A DNA stretch of 64,000 nt from Membranipora membranacea (Eukaryota; Bryozoa; Gymnolaemata; Cheilostomatida; Membraniporidae), in assembly GCA_914767715.1 (NCBI GenBank), contig OU612070.1:10619501-10683500 (forward strand), written 5' to 3'. The position numbers were made by a program, and so were the translations under genes. Below are positions 11,329 through 63,927 of this stretch, piece by piece. Below the pieces are notes generated by a model. That model saw only the letters and a program-made list of their open reading frames with translations, was not told where the DNA came from and did not search any database. Each line of letters begins with the position of its first letter. Within the stretch, counting starts at the first letter, position 1.

Positions 11329-14070
11329 TAATAATAATAATAATAATTCTGATAAAAATAACTTTTCATGATAGATATCATGAATAGTAAAGCCTCTATT
11401 TGCAGGCATGCTAAAATTTCACAAGTTTTATTTAATTGTTATGTGATAAAAGGGAAAGAAATTATTTTCTTTGAGGTTATTTTAGTGATGATGGATGTGT
11501 ATATTGAGATGTTATTGACAATAAAAACTTCCTATGGAGCATGATGACATAGGCTTATAAAGTTTATTACATTTGTCCAATCCCCTATGGAGGATTGAGC
11601 TGTTCTCTTGGGTTGTTGTTAATGTGGCAGTCAAAGAGAAAATGCTCTGATGTTTCAACCTCTTGCCAGCAGAGGCATAGGGGTGTATGGGTTAGCTTTA
11701 AAAGGAACATATGTGCTTGGAGTCTACTATGGCCTGAGAGAAGGGCACATAGGGATCCGAAGAGTTTTTTATTTTGATCGAGTGGCAGGGGATTTTTAAA
11801 AATAAGGTTTGGTTCATAATCTGAGGTAAATAATACCCCATAATCATGTGTTTTAAAAAATCTTTCCCATGAGGAAAGCCAAAGTTGTTTTACATGTTTA
11901 TTTATCTGAGTTTTGGAAAAATCCTTCGCATTGACATCCTCGTGCTTGAGAGAACGGGTGCCTAGTAACCGGCACACCTCGGCAAGAAAAATTGCAAAAA
12001 GTGTGCTGTTTGTGTGATGCCAAGGTATCTGATTTGTGGTGAACATCCTTTTGAAAAGGTTTAAACGTGCTTTGATATGATCGAGTCTAGTTGGTAGTAT
12101 TTAAGTGGCAACATGTAAAAATTCTTTTGGTGGTTTGTGGGGAGTACCTGTGATTCTTTTTAGAAAATTGTATGTGTTTAGTTGATTGTCAGACTCCCAT
12201 AGATGAGAGCAATAGAATCCTGAGGGTTTGATGACAGAGTTGTATATTGTTCTTAGGGTTTTAGGTGTTAAAGAGTTTATAAAAGGCAGCAACATATTCC
12301 ATTTTCTTTGCATTGAGTATTGTGCATGGGCTTTGTGTGTAGAAAATTTGAGTTTATTGTCAATAGTACTACTACCAAGACTTTAGTCTCGGTGCACGGG
12401 AAATGATATTGTCTGAGATTTTAATTGGAGTTTCATCACCTTCAGGTTTGAAAAAAATAAGAGATGTTTTAGAACAGTTTAGTTTCAGTCGCCATTTCAA
12501 CAACCATTGATGAATTTTAGTAATTGTGTCAATTATTTTTGCGCAGAGAGTTTGACTGTTGTGGGCATTAAAAAGCATAGTTGCATCGTCTGCATACTGC
12601 AGTGGCATTTGATTTGGTTCCGGGGATACAATGACACGAATAGAAATAGAAAAGAAAATTGGTGACAAGACTGATCCTTGTGGTAGACCGATGACATGTG
12701 GTTTCCCCTCGGAGCAGTAGTCATTAATTTGCAACTTCACAGTTCTGTTGCATAGAAAACTTCTAAACACCTTAACAAGTTGAACTGGAATGCCAACCTC
12801 CACCAATCTATACAACATTCCTTCAAGCCAGATGGAATCAAAAGCATTTTGAAAATCGAGAAACAGGGCAGCCACTTTTTGTTTACTCTTTTTGTGATGT
12901 TCAACGAATGATATTAATTAGAATAGATATGTGTCAGTTTAGTAGTTTTTACGAAATCCGTGTTGGAACGGGGGAAGTAGGTTATTAGTTTCAATATGAT
13001 TTGTAATTCTTGTTTCTAATATTCTTTCAAGGAGTTTACCAATATAAGATGTTAGAGTAATTGGTCTGTATACTCCTAGAGTTGTTGTATCTTTGCCTGG
13101 TTTTTTGTTAGGAATGTTACTGTGCCAGATTTCCATGGCCACTCTCCAGTTTTCATTACCAAGTTAAAAAGGTGGAGCAAGAGAATACGGAACAAGGGTT
13201 TTGAACTTTTTATTAATTTGGGATGAAATCCATCCGGATCAGCATTGGATTTATTTTGATCGGTTGATTTAATTGCACAGTCTAATTCCTCTTTTGTTAT
13301 TTTTGAGGAAAGTTCAATGGAAAAAACAGATGACACCTGTGAAGGTTCATCGATATTAGATTTGCCCTCCATGATCTGGTGGTACCAATTCTTATCTAAT
13401 GTATTAATGTCTAGGTGTTGACCTAAAAATAAGCTTTCATAAAGTGCGTTTGCTTTATCGTGATTCTCAGTAAGGATCACGCCTTTCTCACTTTTTAAAC
13501 TGCCTATAGGACTTTTATGATTATTGTAAAAAGTCTTTTTAAAATTGTTCCAAAACTGATTGGACTTGTATCCATTTAGGTTGGATGAGTGATGTTCTAT
13601 AAAATTACTCTGTGCAGTATTTAGAGCCTCTGAAAAACGAAGTTTGGCTTGATCAAGTGTCCTTTTATTAAATTCGTTTGAACCGTATTTATAACGTTTC
13701 CTTGTTTTGCGTACTTCACTTGAAAGGAGAGAAAGGTTTGCATTCCAATATGGTTTACTATGTTTAGATACGGTTTTAATGGGAACATGTTCATTGTTTA
13801 TCCTGCCTAGAGCTGCTTTGACCACTGTCATAACTTTACAGGATCTTCAATTAGGAATAGGTTAGTAATATTAGGTTCTATAAATGATTCTACTCCAGAA
13901 CTATATTCATCCCAGTTTACATTTTTCCAATCACGTTTTTCTTTGATATTATTGGAGCTGATTGGATTATCTAGGTTGATGTCAGTTATCACTGGGATAT
14001 GACCCCTAATTGGTGCTCCAGTAAAAAGTTCTGTGGTGTCATCAAGATGTAAGATGTGGTTAGAAGGAGG
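11329..14070 (-). mobile_element. 5'-truncated, degenerate non-LTR retrotransposon (LINE)
   Basis: Read on the minus strand, the ORF2-like coding remains are: the end of an endonuclease domain (about 14046-13832; TGAPIRGHIPVITD, then RDWKNVNWDEY); a linker and RT N-terminus (13831-13076); YRPITLTSYIGKLLE (in 13142-12939); the RT core with FQNAFDSI, GLPQGSVLSP and the catalytic YADDATM box (12875-12372); the thumb region (12313-12101); and a C-terminal segment with a Cys/His cluster (CLCW...EHFLFDC, 12046-11585). The pieces lie in different frames, so at least four frameshifts or stops have killed the element. The 3' UTR runs to a (TTA)n tail at about 11329-11350. Domain order and the C-terminal Cys/His knuckle suit the jockey/CR1/L2 side of the LINEs, but the clade is not fixed. 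There is no ORF1 and most of the endonuclease is missing. Confidence 0.92.
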
Positions 14071-42253: not shown

Positions 42254-45219
42254 ATGGAGCGGAGGCGGAAAGTTGCTTTATTTTCCTGCCTGGTTGGGTT
42301 ATCCTTACTTGGTATACTTGGTACCAACTTCAACTGGAGAAGCGCAGTACACTTGATTCGACAACAACATACTGACACTACAAACATCCGAGTTATTGGT
42401 AAGTAAAATCGGTTACCGGGTCCCCCCTTTGGTAAACAGGTTTTAAAGGATTCTGACAGCTTCTATCGGAACCTTGTCGAACTCAAATGTCAAAGACCCT
42501 TTTTGAGAATGGATAATGGAATACCACAAAGGTTCAAGCAGGGTGACCCACCCTCCCTGGTTTAAGCAGGGTGACCCACCTTCCCTGGTTCAAGCAAGGT
42601 GACCCACCCTCCCTGGTTTAAGCAGGGTGACCCACCCTCCCTGGTTCAAGCAGGGTGACCCACCCTCCCTGGTTCAAGCAGGGAGGTTGGGATACCTCCC
42701 TGGTTCAAGTTTGACTATTCATTTGCCTGAATTTTGAGTTGCTCCCCCTACACTGGTCAAGCTTGCGTCTTGACCAGTGGAAGAGGTGTTTACCGGAATG
42801 TAGGCAAAATGGATCAGACTTGACCTAGAGCTATTCCAAGAAAGCAAGGCATAATGATATATTAGGCAATATCATAATTATGCCGTATAGTTTTGGTTAA
42901 CCCCATACCTGACATGAAGATGAAGATATTCACTATTTTTGGTGATACACAGTTAAATCTTAGCTAACACAAATAAGACCATGTGTTTCTAACAGGTGAA
43001 AGCATACTTAAAATACAACAACATCCATTGTTGAATAAGATTATAAGAAGTGGTCATCGAAGAATTATTACGGGTCAGGTCAAAATGAAGATGCGAAGTA
43101 GGCTATTCATATAAAAAACCAACCACTGGACTTGCACCAACTACAGAAGGCCTGTGTAAAAAAGGCTTTTACCATAACCAAGGAGTTAGAGGCCCTAACT
43201 CCTTGCCATAACATACTGACAGTTCTGCGCTTAGCAGCTACCATATGATCACTGTGGGTGGTCTGTCTTGTGATAAGTATAGCCACGGGCTATGTCTGCT
43301 CCTCATTATCCTGGTAATATTGTAATGTCTAGATAACAGTTAAGTTGGTTGACACCTAGTTGTGTTAGATGTTCAACTAAGAGGTCAATGTATGAGCACA
43401 TCACACAAAGACATAGCCTTTGGTATTTCTCTCATCTTTCTTTGTCGGACGAAAAATTAATGAAATGATTAGAAAACATTGCCTGAAGGCAATAGATGTT
43501 TAATTTGGTTGTTTGTTACGATTTGGAAAACTAATCAGACAATTCCGTAAGGCCATTATGGTCACTACAGTAACTGTAATATAATACAATACTGTTATTA
43601 GGTCTATGTTTGATTGAGCAGGGAGGGTGTCCCACCTTCCCTAGTCTAAGTGCTCAGACGGCTCCATTGAGAGTTAGTGGCATTACATTATCAACCACCC
43701 AATCCAAAAATTGGCTGGCTGGTTGATGATGTAACGCCACTAACTCGCAATGGAGCCTTCTGAGCATTTAGTCTACACCCTCCCTGGTTTGAGACATTTT
43801 TTAAGAACAAACAAAAAGTTATCTTCTCCTGCTGCTAAGGAATGAATATCATAATTAATATTTTCTTTTGAAGATGATTTAGAAGCACTTGTTGCTGAGC
43901 TCGCATTTTTGTTAGAAGAAATTTTAAGTAATGGGGTTATGAAATAAATAAACTAAAGCCACAAGTTTTGGGCAAAATTATGTTTTTGTCTGAATGTCCT
44001 TTCAGCTCTGGATCTGAGAGCTTGTCAGGGCTAGATCTGAGCTTAAACTATACACCGAATTTCAAATTAAGTCTGTATTTTCTGTCGATTATTATTTATA
44101 GATATAGAGACATCTACACCTGAGAACACTGCTGTACCCCCAGTCAATCCTAAAGAACCATATACTACTAAAGACTCCTATCTTCATACTATACTGTTCA
44201 ATAAGAGGCCTTTCAATCACAGTCATATCGTCTATATTAAAACACACAAAGCTGCAAGCTCTACCACTCAATCCATTCTTATGCGATATGGCATGAGGAA
44301 CAAGTTGACATTTGCGATAGCGCCCAGAACTTCGAAACGTAACCAGCTGGGATGGCCAGCAAAGTTTAACCACAAAGTGCATATAAGCAACGAGGTCACT
44401 CAACCTGACATTCTGTGTCATCATTCGGTGCTAAGTACTGATCTCATTGACACGATGCCAAAAGACAGCTTCTACTTGACAACAATGCATGACCCTTTCA
44501 CTCAAATCATCTCATCCTATAACTATTATGGCGTAGGAGTCGCCAGCAAACAATCGCTAATGGCCCTTCTGGATACTAATGTCTCCAGAAAAAATGGAGC
44601 CGTACTTAAAAATCCACAAATGTTCGATTCGGGAATGAGCGTCAACTTAATGAAAACAGATAAAGACATCATGGACAGGTTGAAAGCTCTTGATGTTCTT
44701 TTTCATTTCGTGATCATTGTCGAATATTTTGAAGAGTGCTTAATTCTATTGAGAGATATGATGAAATGGACTAATGATGACATACTGTATGTTAAAGTAA
44801 ACTTTAAAGGGGCCAAGTCAGTTTCTTCGCAGCCAAAACCAGACCCTATGGTGCCTGCAGATACTCCAGAAAATCGCAAAGCTGTCTATGAACATCTCAG
44901 GGCAGATTACATTGTGTACAATTTTTTTAAACTTAAAGTCGAGAAAATCATAAAACAAAACCGACAGTATTTAGACACAGAAATAGCAAAACTTCACGAC
45001 ATTCAATCAACTTGGACAAACTTCTGTATCAAGGAGTCGAGAATCTCATCACAGATCAAAGACCGAAGGTTTCGAACCTACGGTAGAGGATCATATGGAT
45101 ATATATTGACAGAACAAGGCTATAACAATCAGACTTGTATAGAGCTAGCTTGTGCTGAGATTTATCACTCTGAACTACTTAGGAAGTATCAGGCAGATCT
45201 GCTCGGCCTCAAACTGTAG
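42254..45219 (+). CDS. Galactose-3-O-sulfotransferase (galactosylceramide sulfotransferase-like)
   Basis: Two coding exons, 42254-42398 and 44102-45219, joined in phase 1, giving 420 aa, close to the roughly 423 aa of vertebrate galactosylceramide sulfotransferase. Expected to be a Golgi type II membrane enzyme that moves sulfate from PAPS to the 3-hydroxyl of galactose on glycolipids or glycans. Visible: a basic start MERRRK followed by a hydrophobic anchor (about residues 7-23); the PAPS 5'-phosphosulfate loop IKTHKAASSTTQSIL at about 94-108; a 3'-phosphate-binding region around 174-187 (FYLTTMHDPFTQIISS), with HDP where many relatives have R(D/E)P; and N-glycosylation sequons NVS and NQT. 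The Met chosen follows a TTCTCCCAG acceptor (at 42240) by 13 nt, so an upstream non-coding exon is likely. AATAAA at 45315. The acceptor specificity within the Gal3ST family is not determined. Confidence 0.9.
42531..42720. repeat. 28-bp minisatellite in the sulfotransferase intron
   Basis: Six or so copies of a 28-bp unit (GGTTCAAGCAGGGTGACCCA plus CCCTCCCT). The same core borders the hairpin at 43643-43774 in the same intron. Confidence 0.85.
43643..43774. mobile_element. Hairpin element 2
   Basis: Arms begin AGTCTAAGTGCTCAGA and include GGCTCCATTG and TTAGTGGC; the loop holds CAACCACCCAATCC. Ends and the CATTATCAACCAC motif match hairpin element 1. More diverged between arms (several mismatches), so older. 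Confidence 0.7.
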
Positions 45220-53100: not shown

Positions 53101-56100
53101 AGCTATCATAGTATTCAAATAAATTTCAATGTCATGCCAGGCAGAATGTCAATTGGTCACTTTTCTTTTCAGGATTTGGGATTTAGAGATGAATTTTTAG
53201 GGAGGCCATTGCTCACATTTGACACTAAGAATTTACCTGTAGGTCCACCTCCACTGGGTTCTGGAAATGACATCATCATTTAGCAATGATCATGAAAATG
53301 TATTTTGAGCAGAGGCAAAGGCATATTTAAAGTTCTTACAGCTCAATCATCAGTCGTAACATAAAAATCCATCCTGATTCACTGACGGTAGCACCACTGC
53401 GAGCAACTGAATGCTCACAATGAGAAACAGTTATAATGAGAATGTTAGGAAATGGCAAAACTATATATAATATTTAAAATATTATATTATATATTTATAA
53501 TATATAATATATGATATATACTTTATAACATATGATATATGACATGTAATATATAACATATGATATATATTACATGATATATGATATAAAATGTATAATA
53601 CATAATGTCTATACCGTTTTCCTGGCCGAGGAAGAGCCTGGTCAGCATGTCCAGTATATCACTGCAGTGGATTTTATCTCCTTCACACACAGGGATGTCG
53701 GTCATCACCAGCCTGAAGTAATTAGGTTTGGCCACTCTCAATGGGTCCTCTAACTCATCGACCAAGTCAAACAGTTTGTCAACTGGTATATATTTGGTTG
53801 CCTTCGGATCATACGTTGCCCAAAGCTCATAATACATTTCAATATCATCCTGCGTTATACCTGAAAAGAAGAATAAATACTTTGTGGATATAAGACCGAT
53901 TTCGCGTGGATATGAAAGATACTCCGTTGATTGTCACCTATCACCGCCGTGGTCCTGCGCGCATGGCGGGTTTCTGCTTGATCCCAAGTTCTACCAAACT
54001 CCTCCATCACACTCGGTATTCAGCATCTGAACCATCTAGATCAAGCCATCAAAGGTCCGAGTTTACCGTATCGCACCGTTGATATTAGAGGGATATTTTG
54101 TGGACATCGAATGAATATTTCGTGGATACAACAGATATTTTGCGGGTATTACGGGGATGTTTGTGGATACTCTGTCGATGTTTCATTGGTTTTTGTGTTG
54201 ATAGCGCATGTATGGTATGTTGGAAACAATACACATATAAATATATTTTTATATGTTTATGGTTGAAACTATAAACTATACGGGGATGTGAGGTGGTTGA
54301 TGTCATCCAGATCAAATCCAGGTTTGGGCATAGAAAATATCTAACAGGTTTAATCAGGAGTTTCGGTATTTTAGAGTTGGGCATTGTTAAGTAAAATCAT
54401 GGGTCCGAACATGACCTTGACATACATGTGAATTTTTGTTACCTTGCTGGACGTCTTCCGTAGCTTGACTGAAGTTTTCTAAGATGACAGCGATGTACAT
54501 GTTGATTATAACTAGGAAAGTGAATAGTAGATATGATACCATATAAGCAACACCCAATGATGGGTTCCCGCATTCCGTCTCTACGCCTGAAAAAAGTCAA
54601 TAAGGTGTCCATCATCCCACAGTAAACTTAAATATTCGTCTCAAAAGAATATAATTAACAAACTCGTTTTTTACATTGTAGCTGACATAATTTCTTTTGC
54701 TCGCAGGCAGTCAACTCATTAGTCAGTAAATTATCTTTTACCTATAATCTGTGAGTTACAATAACTTTATGCATTATTAGCCTATTATTCGATTCAGTGT
54801 TTAACAAAGTGGAGGCAACGACAAAAAGATGAACGCCACTGACAGTATGCTATTTCTATATGCTTCGCTCATTGTTTGGGTGGTGCAATAACAAACCCAT
54901 CATGAACAAATTGTGGAATCTCAGTCTCAGTTGACTCTTGTGCTTATAAACAAAATTGAACTTATAACCGTTAAAATCATCTCCTAACAAAAAAATCTTA
55001 TTGTAGATTTGTGAGGTGGCAACATAGAGTTATTATATAACTCTATGGGTGGCAACTACAAGAAAACTGTGAATTTAGAAGCCAATGGGACTTGCATCTT
55101 GCGTGGTGTTCTTATTATGCCCAAGCTTGTGAACTAAGGCAATCAAATTATATACAACACAAATTCGATCTTGTGAGTGAAATCATTTCTGTGCGCCACG
55201 GTCAGACTCCTTGACCTTGACCTATTACCCGACTTACAATCTTCAGTGTTAGTGATGGCGGTGAGCACACCATTCCACCCAGCAGATGTGGTGCACTGGA
55301 ATAGCACCATCAATGCTCGCATGAATGTCGTGAAGTTAAATACCTGTAATTATTAAAGGCATGTTGATCAAATATTGAAAGAGTCTGTTATTCAAAAACT
55401 TATTTATGCATAGACTTACAATCTTCGGTGTTAGTTATACCCGTAAGCACACCACTCCAGCCAGCGGACGTGGTACACTGGAATAAGGTGATCAATGATC
55501 GGAAGAATGTGGAGAAGTTAAAAACCTGTAAAAAAAGACTCATGTCAAATACTGCTCAAGCATATGCAACACGCAAGGTGTCATCTCAAAAGGGGTGGGG
55601 GGGGGAGGGGGAGTTGAGGATGAATGTGGGAAAATCTTTTACATATAAAGGGCAAAAAAGAGCCAATTCTGACTTATTTTTGTCCAAAAGTGACAGAGCA
55701 GTCAAAGGTTGGGAGGTGGAATAGGGAAAGGTGGAATATAATATACAATCATGAACGGTGGGTTGAAAAGTTGTTTAGACGAAATAGGCCACTTACTCAA
55801 TATGCAAAGGCCAATGGGTTTGGATGTTTTATGGTCAAGGAATTATAACTGACTATTGTCAGATAGAAGGACAGGGTAAGATATGATAAAGGCAGGTGGT
55901 ATGGGGTAAGGGCATCTGTAAACTACCCACAGTCACTTTGACAATTATAATTTCCAATACTCCCACAACGCAACTTTTCCCTAGAAGTCTTGAATATATA
56001 GAGACATGGTGTCCAAGTCTGTCACGCTTTCATAAACATGTTCTCCCTTAGAATTTCATGCTGCAGATGCATTGTGGGGTGTGGTGAGCTAGAGTAGGAG

Positions 56101-59100
56101 AATCATCATCAGGCAAGAACTTTCAAGGTAGAACTGGTGCAGTCTATACAAAGGGTATACGTCACATTTTACAGCGACATGAAGAGCAGTAAAATTGAGT
56201 CATGAGTTCTTTTAAGAAAAGTTTAGATACAACCTAGATATTACCTAGATACAACCTAGATACAACCTAGACTCACTTACCTCATCGATACCGCCCAAAT
56301 ATTTGACCTTGGAAAAGAAGGCCATACCAAACGTGGCATAGATAAACATCACTAAGAATAGTAGCAGTCCAATGTTGAACAGAGCTGGTAATGACACAAG
56401 TAGAGAGAATAGCAGCGTTCTTATTCCTTTCGCTGATTTGACGAGACGTAAGACACGCCCCACTCTGAACACCCTTACAACTCTGAGAACTGTAGGTGAC
56501 AGATTCAAATACTGCTCTATTGCATCCTGGAAGGCAAGTCCTGCAATGGGAACATCATGACAGAAATTATAAAAATGTGTTGTACCAGTAGTGCGCAATA
56601 TTTCAGTTCAGACCAGATCAACTATTATAGTCTAATCATCGTGTAGATTACTTCCACAATGAACCTTTACAATTTTAGATCGTATACATTTTCCTTTCTC
56701 ACTATTTGGAATCATCATTCAAACATTTCTGCTTACTTAGGTAGCTAGGAAAACCCACAAGGTTCCAATAAAGGGTCATCTCACCCCAACAAAAGAGCAG
56801 TCAACTGAAAATTACTGCAACTTTTTTAGGAATCCACAAAGTTGCAATAAAGGGTCATCTCACCCCAACAAAAGAGCAGTCAACTGAAAATTACTGCAAC
56901 TTTTTTAGGAATCTTTGTGCAGTGAGATTGCCACGTGCATTCCCATTACTAAATCTATGAGGGAGTTATCCCACAACTAAATTTTCTGGAATTCACAATG
57001 AGATTAGGTTGATGATAACATATAGAAGATTGGTCTGAATTTAAATTTAGTTATAGACAAACATACCAAGTATGGAGAATAATACGACCACAAAGTCGAA
57101 CACATTCCACGGGAACGTAAAGTAATAATGGCGTAACGCTATAAGCTTCAGCACGGCTTCCAACGTGAACACAACTATAAACACTATGTTTACATATTTT
57201 AACACCTAAAAAGTAAAAAAAATCAGCAATCAGCCCGAGATACATATTATGGAGAATAGAGGGATGGAACCATCACAATGAAATTCAAATGTATCAGATG
57301 TCGCATTTGTACGGTGTTAAAATACCATGTAGGAAGATTTATCCATTCGCTAAACCGTAACGGTGTTTCTGTGATTGTTTCCGCCCACATGCTACTAACA
57401 TTTGTAGGGATTAACTTACCTCCATAGCAAACATTTGTAGTGATTAACTTACTTCTATAGCAAAAATTTGTAGTGATTAAATTACCTCCCTAGCTAACAT
57501 TTGTCGTGATTAACTTACCTCCATAGCAAACATTTGTAGTGATTAACTTACCTCCATAGCAAACATTTGTAGTGATTAACTTACCTCCCTATCTAGCATT
57601 TGTAATGATAAACTCACCTCAGTATAGTCATCTGGTTGTGAGGCGTACTCGGCACACATAGTTATCATGTTCAACAAAATAAACAACATGATCGCTACGT
57701 CAAACTTCTGATTCATCGTGAAATCGAACACGGCTGCCTGAGGCTTCCACTGTAAACAAAAACAGCCAAAACAGGTGAACTACCATAGACTTAACAATAA
57801 ACCTAGACAGGACACTATAAATGGAGAATTAGCATTGAGGCACTGAGGCACTTAAAGCGGTAGACAACCAAAAAAGTTATATTTTGATATTTGATGCGTA
57901 ATGATGTACTCCTTCTAAACTCGGGTGTTATAAATAAATGTTAAAATTGAAAATTTTAATTATTTCAATTACAAACTCTCTTCCACCATTTTGTTTAAGT
58001 TACGCAAATACCCGTACTCTCCAAATAAATATATTATTGGAAAAAAATTATGTATAAAATAATTTTTTTCTAGAATCGAAGCAGCTATCTTTTGTTGTGT
58101 CAATCTTAGTATATAAACAGTATCTTAGTTACAAAATCATATACAAAAACAAGATTATTGCTTTAATAACAAAAATTAAGCATTTTATTTGAGATTATGA
58201 TAGCTTCTCAACTTAATTCAGTTTATTGCAGCCATGGGGTAGAGGGGCTACTGACTGCCCTGTGGTGCAGATCCAGAGCTTATATCTTGGATTTCTATTG
58301 TTGAGTATGTTGCCTACTGGTGAAGGTTAATTGCATCTTGATACGTATTTAGTGGTGCCAGTGTTGTCTTCTACTTTAAATGTGGGCGACGTAACGACAT
58401 TGGAAGGTGTAGTAGCATTGGTGTTATCATTGACTTGCAGCTCATATACCAGGTGTTTGGTTGATAACTATAAACCTTTATAATTAAGTGTATGTGAACT
58501 ACTTTTGAAATAGGAGTGTTTCACTTATAGTTTACTTGTGGAAAGCTAATATATGGTTGTGACAATAAAATGATCTCACAAAGCGGTTTAATCTGCAGCT
58601 TGGCTGAGAGACACCAGGGTGATGAGAGTATATAAACTCAAAGTTTCAGGCAGTTTCAGGCATTTTTGAATAGCTTGTAGTATGCTAAACGAATATTCAA
58701 TTCGCCATCCCTGTGAGTTGCATAGTGTAGGCTGGTTTGTAATTTGATTACCTTTGGTCTTGGTGTTGCTTTGGCGGGTCCAGAAGCGGACAACTTCTTC
58801 ATGGCATTATAATACTTTTTCTGATCATCCGTCATAAACATCTCCAGTGAACCACCAGCCTGAAAATAACATTATAGGCACTTAGCTTTGATGCTATCAT
58901 ATTTGGTAAACCCATTGGCTGTAGCGGCATATTCGAAGAAAGTCCATAGACTAGACTAAGGATTGTACTCCCTTTAGTTTTATATCAAGGCCAAATCCGT
59001 AAGTCAATGGATAATGACGTACAGTGCAAACGCCTTCTTATAATTGCAATGTTACGACGTCTGCGACATAACATTAATTCACCATTGTAGCAACTAACCA

Positions 59101-62100: not shown

Positions 62101-63927
62101 AGGTGATAGGTCAGATTAGTGAAGATGAATCAATGTTTGTGTTACGCCTACCTTTTTCTTCTGAGCGTTGAAATTCTCAATGATGACACCAATGAACAGG
62201 TTTAGAGTGAAGAAAGACCCAAATACAATGAATAGCACAAAGTAGCCATAATACCCCACTGATTTCTCAAATATTGGATTTTCTCCTACTGCTGTCGAGT
62301 CTGTTGCATCTGCCATGATCTCAATCCAACCTTTGTAGGTCGCCTATGAAAACATCAAACAAATCAAGGTCACATATCACAATCAACAATATGGCGATGA
62401 GGTATTGCAATAATTAGTTTTGAGAGACCCTCAGTGATTCAGGAGTGTGGCAGCAAGCAAAGACTTGCTGATGGACCCAAAAGAGTCATGCACAAATCAC
62501 CATTGACTGAGTTTGTGGTCTGTGAATTAGTGCACAGCGAATAAGTGCACAGTGAATAAGTGCACAGTGAAAAATTGATCAGTTAATAAGTGATCAGTGA
62601 ATAAGGGCACAGTGAATAAGTGATCAGTTAATAAGTGCACAGTGAATTAGTGCACAGTGAATAAGTGCACAGTGAATACTTGATCAGCGGAGACTTGATC
62701 AGTGACTAAGTGCTCCCAATCTAGATAGTCAGTGACTCAATATCCATCGACTAAACCAGTGACAAAGTAGTGGGTTAGTGATCAGTGACAAATTGAGCAA
62801 CCAACATTCAAGTACATAAACTGTCAATTGGATGTTAGAACTTACAACTTGAAACAATGATAAGTAAGCTGCTGGAACATTGTCAAAGTTGATTTTTGAA
62901 TTCAACCAATGATATCCTGCATCAGTACATGTTTTATTGTCGTATATTCCCATTATATCTCGTACGTAGTCAAAGCTCTTATTCTTGTCGGCTATATTAT
63001 ATATGGGGTGTTCTCTGCAATTAAATAGAGTAAAAGTTACAATATCGGAATAACAAGAGATTTGCAAAATCTTTCAGCATATTTATTGATTGAGTTTGCT
63101 CCTTTTTGCTTGTATTTTCAGGAAGGTGCCCTTCTCCCCTTTAACGTCATGCCTCTTTTAATTTTGGGTTAAGAGTTTTTTGATCATGTGGATTGAGAAA
63201 CCCCAAAAAAAAAGATTTTGGCAAGGCATGACCTTAACTGACCTAGACATAGGAAAAAACTTAATATACAGTAGAATCAATCAAATTTAACTACGTAATT
63301 ATCAAATCTTAAATGTCTCTCCAACATCTTACCTGTAATACACATGTAGGAAGTTTCCTTCATCGTCGACGCATTTGTAGAATTTCCCTTTGAAGAAGTT
63401 TACACCCATGATAGCAAATATGAGCCAGAATATAAGAATGACAAGCATGACGTTACTGATGGAGGGCACAGCTTGTATCAAGGCGTTCACAACCACCTGT
63501 TCAAAAATAACATTGAATGATTAGCGCACTGAATACCGTATAGTATTTCAAATGTTCATGAATGAGCACCAAAGATCGCTTTTTGAAAAAGAATTCTGTG
63601 AAGACTACCCAAAGACCAATGCATGTTATAGTCCAGCAGTTACTTATGATAAAGTTATACCAGATAAGTAGATTTGCCAAGTAGAGCATTGAATGTTTTT
63701 ATCATGCAAATCTGACACAACTTAATCGTAACTAACTGCCTGACTGACTATACCATACATTGGTCTTTGGGTTGTCTTTAAGTAGATTGCGCAGTTATTC
63801 TTACCCTCATTCCTTCCCATCTAGACACGGCTCTCAGTGGACGTAATGCTCGCAGTGTTCTCATGGCTTTGAATGCACTCATTCCTTCCAAGCCCATACT
63901 CTCCATTACCAATCCTGTTATTGATAT
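49960..63927 (-). CDS. Nav1: Voltage-gated sodium channel alpha subunit (Nav1 type), C-terminal 712 residues
   Basis: Minus-strand exons in order: 63927-63805, 63496-63333, 63014-62846, 62343-62152, 58859-58752, 57749-57618, 57205-57067, 56540-56281, one of 55525-55420 or 55343-55238, 54586-54443, 53860-53615, 53260-53237, 51590-51454, 50154-49960. All have GT-AG borders and phases join cleanly to a TGA at 49960-49962. Content: domain III S4 ([15 protein letters not shown]), S5, pore loop with the filter Lys (FQV|ATYKGW) and S6; inactivation gate GGSLEMFMT; domain IV S1-S3, S4 ([16 protein letters not shown]), S5, pore loop with the filter Ala (TTSAGW), S6; EF-hand-like and IQ-like C-terminus ([14 protein letters not shown]) and a Lys/Ser-rich tail. 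Lys in domain III marks the DEKA, Na+-selective Nav1 class rather than DEEA Nav2. Domains I-II and the start lie beyond the right edge. Confidence 0.95.
50230..50271. mobile_element. Palindromic MITE, family 'TAGCCAATGTGTTGGCT', copy 2 (short)
   Basis: TAGCCAATGTGTTGGCTCTG followed at once by its inverted arm; the central part seen in other copies is missing. Lies in the last Nav1 intron. Confidence 0.6.
50938..51007. repeat. AT-rich hairpin in the last Nav1 intron
   Basis: CAATATATATTTAGTTTATG...CATAAACTAAATATATTG: arms of about 33-36 bp around a very short loop (TGCAGCA). Resembles a MITE hairpin more than a microRNA precursor because the stem is almost perfect and the loop tiny. Confidence 0.75.
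52937..53009. mobile_element. Palindromic MITE, family 'TAGCCAATGTGTTGGCT', copy 3
   Basis: TAGCCAATGTGTTGGCTCTG start, imperfect inverted end (..GGAGCAAACCCATTGGTTA); located in a Nav1 intron. Confidence 0.65.
53237..53260 (-). CDS. Nav1: Nav1 24-nt exon in the C-terminal region
   Basis: Bounded by TTTCCAG and GTAAAT on the minus strand, phase 1 at both ends. It encodes about EPSGGGPT between the EF-hand-like segment and the IQ-like segment. Skipping it would keep the frame, so it may be a cassette exon; this is inferred from phase only. Confidence 0.65.
53461..53605. repeat. AT dinucleotide-rich repeat next to a Nav1 exon
   Basis: About 145 bp of ATATGATATAT-type repeats lying in the intron immediately after the donor at 53614 (minus strand). 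Confidence 0.75.
55238..55343 (-). CDS. Nav1: Nav1 domain IV pore-loop exon, version b
   Basis: 106 nt between TAATTACAG and GTAAGT on the minus strand, entering in phase 0 and leaving in phase 1. It encodes the P-loop with [13 protein letters not shown]. It differs from version a at seven of 35 residues (T/S, M/F, A/S, M/I, V/T, N/S, A/G). The Asn follows AGW where most Nav channels have Asp. Confidence 0.92.
55420..55525 (-). CDS. Nav1: Nav1 domain IV pore-loop exon, version a
   Basis: 106 nt between TTTTTTTACAG and GTAAGT, same phases as version b, lying upstream of it in transcript order with a 76-nt intron between. It encodes [13 protein letters not shown]. Both versions keep the selectivity-filter Ala, the FQC before it and the following NTED, so both look functional. 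Confidence 0.92.
56755..56912. repeat. 79-bp tandem duplication in a Nav1 intron
   Basis: Two nearly identical copies of a unit containing CAATAAAGGGTCATCTCACC and AAATTACTGCAACTTTTTTA. Confidence 0.85.
57398..57628 (-). repeat. 33-bp minisatellite built from a 5' splice site
   Basis: Six tandem 33-bp units (57398-57595) plus a diverged seventh unit (57596-57628) that contains the real donor of the Nav1 domain IV S1 exon (GAG|GTGAGT at 57617). On the minus strand most units carry a consensus-like donor, GGAG|GTAAGT. The array has evidently grown by duplicating the exon-intron boundary into the intron. Confidence 0.85.
58752..58859 (-). CDS. Nav1: Nav1 inactivation-gate exon (III-IV linker)
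   Basis: 36 codons starting [24 protein letters not shown] is the invertebrate form of the fast-inactivation IFMT particle. Acceptor TTTTCAG, donor GTAATC, phase 0 at both ends. Confidence 0.93.
60094..60102 (-). other. Nav1: Candidate 9-nt microexon (DSD) in the III-IV linker
   Basis: In the 3.3-kb intron between the III S6 exon and the gate exon, the minus strand reads TTCATTTCAG|GACTCAGAT|GTGAGTG. Its use would insert Asp-Ser-Asp in frame between QKKK and [10 protein letters not shown]. Both splice sites look good, but so short an exon can occur by chance. Confidence 0.3.
60841..60913. mobile_element. Palindromic MITE, family 'TAGCCAATGTGTTGGCT', copy 4
   Basis: TAGCCAATGTGTTGGCTCTG...AGGGCCAATACATTGGCTA, a clean hairpin with 25-30 bp arms, in a Nav1 intron. 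Confidence 0.75.
62152..62343 (-). CDS. Nav1: Nav1 domain III filter and S6 exon
   Basis: 64 codons beginning [10 protein letters not shown] and ending NAQKKK. The Lys in ATYKGW is the K of the DEKA filter. The outer-ring residues that follow are Ile-Glu, where vertebrate channels usually have Met-Asp. The S6 segment [18 protein letters not shown] is typical. Confidence 0.93.
62530..62715. repeat. 15-bp minisatellite in a Nav1 intron
   Basis: About twelve units of TGCACAGTGAATAAG, alternating with TGATCAGTGAATAAG, between the domain III pore-loop exon and the S6 exon. Confidence 0.85.

Follow-up and report, generated by a model that had tools for sequence, protein, structure and literature searches.

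A predicted choice between two tandem exons for the domain IV pore loop of the Nav1 sodium channel of Membranipora membranacea

Vertebrates vary the mouth of the sodium-channel pore mostly through many genes, and we know of no Nav1 that switches its pore mouth by alternative splicing. In Nav genes, the mutually exclusive exons of domain III, as well as the pair of insect para, lie in S3–S4. Domains I and III are described as having conserved mutually exclusive Nav exons in matching places, those of domain I in the S3–S4 linker (PMC13011093). Like the pair presented here, the 5N/5A, 6N/6A, and 18N/18A exons of mammals and the para exons of insects are tandem duplicates in Nav genes (PMC13011093, PMC9741552), but they swap segments of the DI and DIII voltage sensors, whereas the new pair would swap part of the pore. 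The tandem-duplicate Nav pairs located in these sources lie in S3–S4, as the original prediction for this locus had stated. In a survey of tandem exons in humans and flies, the section on voltage-gated channels mentions a pair in cockroach para whose gating differs, giving no position, and it names no Nav pore pair (PMC9741552). In oyster Nav1, two likely mutually exclusive exons are placed in the I–II linker and, in the accessible parts of that paper, are not described as duplicates (PMC5295241). Among the titles listed from the open literature on splicing, none announces a domain IV pore exon pair in Nav1, in line with the original prediction, which knew of none; the result is provisional, with subscription papers mostly outside this literature.

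The closest likenesses are found in other four-domain cation channels. In NALCN, 15a/15b and 31a/31b are mutually exclusive pore-loop exons, and the filter residue is swapped between them (PMC3557258, PMC4436565). As in these pairs, the exon duplicated in tandem in Membranipora encodes the re-entrant pore loop; one exon is used per NALCN mRNA, and the same is predicted here from the reading frame. The NALCN pairs, however, belong to domains II or III with an E/K swap in the filter, whereas the present pair belongs to domain IV of a Nav1 and keeps the filter Ala. In Cav3 (T-type) channels, the alternative pore exons 12a/12b lie above the filter, contribute to the domain II S5-P turret, and alter permeation (PMC4436565). 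These differ from the present pair in domain, in having unequal lengths and cysteines, in ending before the filter, and in belonging to a calcium-channel gene. The change of selectivity residue, length, or cysteines that marks the NALCN and Cav3 types is absent, since the two Membranipora exons share the Ala, the length, and the cysteines.

The window is the whole stretch of DNA analyzed, 64,000 nt of the assembly of the cheilostome bryozoan M. membranacea (contig OU612070.1, here C6, 10,619,501 to 10,683,500). In the same assembly, the 14,741-base mitochondrial genome (C18) appears by eye to use the invertebrate mitochondrial code (code 5), judged from AAA, ATA, and AGR at conserved COX1/COX3 positions. 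On the minus strand of the window, a model of 11 exons reaches from S4 of domain III as far as the C-terminal region, and it is open with either exon of the pair, 9A or 9B, giving 578 residues each time. The features used below are as follows (window positions).

62152..62343, minus strand: exon 4, with the domain III filter Lys ([10 protein letters not shown]) and S6
58752..58859, minus strand: exon 5, III–IV linker with the MFM motif
57618..57749, minus strand: exon 6, DIV S1–S2, with a further donor in the same frame at 57585, 33 nt downstream
57067..57205, minus strand: exon 7, DIV S2–S3
56281..56540, minus strand: exon 8, upstream of the pair, end of DIV S3 to S5; ends in phase 0 (GAG|GTAAGT)
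55420..55525, minus strand: exon 9A, 106 nt, entered in phase 0 and left in phase 1; encodes pore helices 1 and 2 of domain IV with the filter TTSAGW between them, and Ser as outer-ring residue
55344..55419, minus strand: intron between 9A and 9B, 76 nt
55238..55343, minus strand: exon 9B, 106 nt, phases as in 9A; alternative form of the same helix 1/filter TTSAGW/helix 2 segment, with Asn as outer-ring residue
54443..54586, minus strand: exon 10, downstream of the pair, turret and DIV S6; starts in phase 1
53617..53860, minus strand: exon 11, C-terminal EF-like/GPHH region; 3′ end provisional

The translated model matches Ion_trans of Pfam (E 6e-107), the related PKD_channel (1.7e-8), and GPHH (1.6e-6). 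The inactivation motif of the III–IV linker is MFM ([22 protein letters not shown]). With the DI and DII loops read on the minus strand of the adjoining 40 kb, the filter motifs are TQDYWEN in DI, CGEWIES in DII, ATYKGW in DIII, and TTSAGW in DIV; the filter ring is therefore DEKA, that of a Nav1. Judged by this ring and the MFM motif, the gene that carries 9A and 9B is a Nav1 sodium channel, as originally proposed. Its span, estimated by eye, is roughly 32 kb, with approximate ends. The assignment to the domain IV pore loop also holds for both segments: joined to exon 10 (83 aa each), they match the domain IV of Nav channels in the PDB about equally, with best values of E 1.1e-23 (85.8 bits) for 9A and E 4.7e-24 (87.1 bits) for 9B. 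A search of the two pore segments against NCBIfam returned no family, as expected from a prokaryotic library.

The two exons have the marks of a tandem pair: they are adjacent and homologous, they are entered and left in equal phases, and the splice sites of each are intact, with AG in front and GTAAGT behind. They differ at 22 of 106 nt, of which 14 are at third codon positions, five at first, and three at second; 10 codons change silently and seven residues are replaced. On recounting, the places, lengths, spacing, splice sites, and difference counts of the original prediction proved exact, and the filter Ala is present in both copies, as it had said. The likeness of 9A and 9B (blastn E=5e-22, tblastn E=2e-16) is not due to chance, given these values and the behavior of a degenerate pore-motif pattern, which matches twice in the window and never in 100 shuffles of it. 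When the 33.5-kb gene region was compared with itself (tblastn, E up to 0.01, stop-to-stop peptides of at least 20 aa, a length that very short exons could escape), no coding exon apart from 9A/9B was seen duplicated in tandem. The other same-strand matches reflect the homology of the four domains to one another, repeats in introns, and short stretches without evident coding meaning, and one further match is 9B/9A in another frame.

The frame restricts how the pair can be used. With 9A and 9B both spliced in, translation reads ...EDCI-stop just inside 9B, which bears out, in the 11-exon model, the original claim that the two together break the frame. With both skipped, it reads ...GIDEA-stop, exon 10 then being read GCG TAG. 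A stop thus comes within two codons in either case, and a productive mRNA is expected to hold exactly one of the two exons. We therefore read 9A and 9B as mutually exclusive tandem exons of the Nav1 of M. membranacea, one per mRNA, with a probability of about 0.85. Both look functional and are probably used. Each mRNA would take 9A or 9B, and a transcript with both or with neither would meet an early stop, leading to its removal or to a truncated channel. The sequence, its frames, its conservation, and the places of the changes are observed; use of one exon at a time, its regulation, and its physiological effect are predictions.

How joint splicing would be prevented may be related to the intron of 76 nt, an outlier beside the other 10 introns of the model (308–3,292 nt). 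In a consensus scan, its nearest branch-point-like A lies 52 nt from the donor. Steric exclusion by a short distance between donor and branch point is not a feature of all exclusive pairs. For other exon pairs, the steric threshold for this distance is given as about 50 nt (PMC7969005), so that steric exclusion of joint 9A/9B splicing is possible. The acceptors are unequal, with pyrimidines making up 65% of the 20 nt before 9A (including a run of seven T), 55% before the poorer 9B, and 70% before exon 10. Competing pairing between introns was considered as a regulator of the choice and rejected: for the three introns, duplex energies were no better than those of 40 mononucleotide shuffles (z of −0.48, −0.35, and +1.11). 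TGCATG (Rbfox), CTCTCT, and TTCTCT are absent from all three introns; GCATG occurs once, in the upstream one, and YCAY, counted without a control, occurs 19, 0, and 16 times. An Rfam search of the window gave no matches. For M. membranacea, the poly-A RNA-seq run ERR6464929 is listed (PMC10290214).

From 9A to 9B, the replacements are, in exon numbering, S5T, F8M, S10A, I12M, T13V, S24N, and G29A. Alignment of 9A to solved Nav chains places the filter Ala at exon position 21 and the outer-ring residue at position 24, so that five changes precede the filter, one follows it, and one falls on the outer ring itself. We assume the helix boundaries of general Nav structures, helix 1 before the filter and helix 2 after. 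Exon choice would then swap five residues of pore helix 1, one of helix 2, and the outer-ring residue, and the filter would remain DEKA whichever exon is taken. In the other domains, an aromatic Tyr follows the filter Asp in DI, the outer residue in DII is Glu, and DIII has Ile-Glu. Taking the usual ring positions in DI–DIII, the outer ring is presumably E-E-E-S with 9A and E-E-E-N with 9B. At position 24, the human Nav chains shown in the alignment have Asp, in place of the Ser of 9A or the Asn of 9B, and this is the tetrodotoxin site D1532 of rat Nav1.4. Exon position 12 (I/M) corresponds to rat 1520, another resistance site of snakes. The rat numbers 1529 and 1532 for exon positions 21 and 24 follow the snake/rat numbering of PMC10723449. 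All seven changes had been called mild at the outset; their number stands, but at the outer-ring/tetrodotoxin position the description understates the change. The idea of two pore vestibules, for its part, is upheld as a sequence difference in the loop and can be sharpened to Ser versus Asn at this position.

The residue at rat D1532 is also replaced in the toxin-resistant Nav channels of garter snakes, newts, nemerteans, Varroa, and the blue-ringed octopus, mostly by Asn or Ser and by His in Hapalochlaena (PMC12732450, PMC8472881, PMC10723449, PMC7656900). In mutagenesis, Asn for this Asp lowered the affinity for tetrodotoxin about 40- to 300-fold, and in newts a Ser-Asp pair goes with very high resistance (PMC12732450). 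Asn or Ser at the site is tied to resistance in snakes and newts and, through comparison alone, in nemerteans; for Varroa, a channel that was tested is reported to carry the Ser change (PMC10723449, PMC12732450, PMC7656900). Snake-type combinations that include Asn at the site had unitary conductances lower by 29% and 54% (PMC10723449). The changes in these animals are fixed or allelic, whereas 9A and 9B coexist as exons of one gene. In the nemertean Nav paper, the Asn and Ser variants occur between species, and its main text contains neither "splic" nor "exon".

Where other channels have the DIV Asp, both Membranipora exons encode a neutral residue, as toxin-resistant channels do. A switch by splicing between channels of different affinity for guanidinium toxins (tetrodotoxin, saxitoxin), which is a special case of the mutually exclusive reading and compatible with it, could be built on the two residues that stand for Asp at the domain IV toxin site and on the I/M difference at rat 1520. 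We consider such a switch rather unlikely. The acidic residue is absent from both exons, and both may then have low affinity; the DI aromatic Tyr and the DII Glu are retained; and none of the titles listed from the open literature deals with these toxins in bryozoans. Enrichment of the 9A/9B differences at the snake resistance sites was also rejected, the two of four sites reached by seven differences being at chance level (p=0.17). Since 9A and 9B are both neutral in DIV, graded tuning is likelier than a simple alternation of sensitive and resistant channels.

For the mutually exclusive pair, the most likely effect would then be a tuning of the outer vestibule between tissues or life stages, with unitary conductance, block by cations or protons, affinity for guanidinium toxins, and slow inactivation as candidate properties. 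More specifically, and tentatively, tissues or stages with a single Nav1 might choose by splicing between a DIV loop with a Ser ring and one with an Asn ring; nerve, retractor muscle, and the planktonic larva would be candidate sites of the choice, and the trade-off would be between unitary conductance and block by divalent ions or toxins. If so, this would be the first Nav1 known to us to change its pore mouth through splicing, one gene doing what vertebrates do with paralogues. The choice of pore-loop exons is itself known from NALCN and Cav3, and a domain IV pair would extend splicing-controlled pores to Nav1. Animals exposed to toxins alter the pore mouth by mutation, at the cost in conductance given above (PMC10723449); two domain IV loops side by side would offer a natural and testable way around this trade-off. 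The seven substitutions are also a ready-made set for asking which pore-helix residues accompany the loss of the outer-ring carboxylate.

By the method of Nei and Gojobori, dS between 9A and 9B is 0.88 and dN 0.12 (25 silent and 80 replacement sites), a ratio of 0.14, and silent and replacement changes are unevenly distributed (Fisher test, p=5.5e-5). When 22 changes were placed at random (20,000 draws), seven or fewer residue changes resulted in 0.005% of draws from 9A and in 0% from 9B, and a stop was gained in 42%–49%. Beyond 6 nt of identity on each side of the exons, the introns are unlike: over 76 nt, the flanks are 22% identical upstream and 36% downstream, which indicates that neutral sequence has largely diverged while the exons have not. 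In a gapped local comparison, the upstream likeness was matched by 18 of 500 shuffles (marginal) and the downstream one by 401 of 500 (nil). With the low dN/dS and exact likeness ending 6 nt outside the exons, the duplication appears old, and each of the copies seems to have been maintained. Gene conversion restricted to the exons may also have kept them alike, though no identical run in them exceeds 10 nt.

A further reading is that normal mRNA takes only one exon and that the other is preserved but silent or very rarely used. The weaker pyrimidine tract of the 9B acceptor would fit it, and the measured dS leans on only 25 silent sites. In simulations where one copy drifted and the other was fixed (5,000 runs), a short drift agrees with the data, seven or fewer residue changes being kept in about 20% of runs at 0.15 per site on the drifting branch, as if divergence were about one-third of that measured. 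At 0.225 the proportion was 2% and at 0.3 it was 0.15%; at 0.438, which is half of the measured dS, no run from either exon did so. Depending on drift time, the drifting copy lost AG or GT in 43%–80% of runs and gained a stop in 29%–61%, whereas in Membranipora both frames are open, both pairs of splice sites are intact, the ratio is 0.14, and the introns have little in common. Single-exon use is thus improbable, and the ratio, the drift simulation, and the random placement agree with selection on both exons, as had been suggested. That the pair is an assembly artefact or merged alleles, a general possibility in a project where 17 haplotypic duplications were removed by the assemblers (PMC10290214), is very improbable, as exons 21% divergent between dissimilar introns are unlike two alleles or a collapsed repeat and the assembly is described as built on 66-fold HiFi, 10X reads, and Hi-C (PMC10290214).

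The genome was searched with the domain IV and the domain III pieces of the gene, and the best candidates were scored. Among the matches listed, the 12 for domain IV comprise four in the gene itself, three in two genes on C2 and C1, and five at other loci; the eight for domain III comprise two, three, and three, respectively. The genes on C2 (L012) and C1 (L013) have ATFEGW, with Glu, in domain III and Glu in domain II, and they are of the Nav2 type because of these residues. The loci at C4:5.56 Mb (TGTGW), C4:7.11 Mb (domain III EGW), C11, and C1:6.73 Mb are not Nav1-like in the parts read. Among the best-scored candidates, no second DEKA gene was found, the pore loop at C1:165–169 kb not being readable, and M. 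membranacea apparently has no Nav1 gene other than the one with 9A and 9B.

In the Nav2-type gene on C1 (G000:C1:1,005,413-1,008,775), the DIV filter is STSGGW, with Gly instead of the usual Ala. L012 and L013 contain DIV (from S4 and from S1, respectively) and the C-terminus in single open frames of 449 and 509 aa, uninterrupted where the Nav1 gene has introns; intron loss or retroposition could account for such frames. The locus at C1:165–169 kb (L015, G000:C1:163,637-166,912; L034) is fragmentary and channel-like, gives way to a simple repeat at the expected place of the domain IV pore, and is possibly a decaying gene.

Within the Nav1 gene, the two in-frame donors of exon 6 (GTGAGT and GTAAGT, window 57585-57618) make an 11-residue extension of the domain IV S1–S2 loop possible. 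Its introns contain a tandem array with a 33-nt period (window 57362-57592) and a 79-nt tandem duplication, 96% identical (window 56752-56909). Elsewhere in the window, pieces that by eye look like monocarboxylate-transporter (SLC16-like) genes in an array extend over about 7,900-33,400 on the plus strand, and two other features were noted.

44071-45219, plus strand: Gal-3-O-sulfotransferase gene (Pfam E 1.6e-42)
12372-12917, minus strand: reverse-transcriptase fragment (E 1.4e-21)
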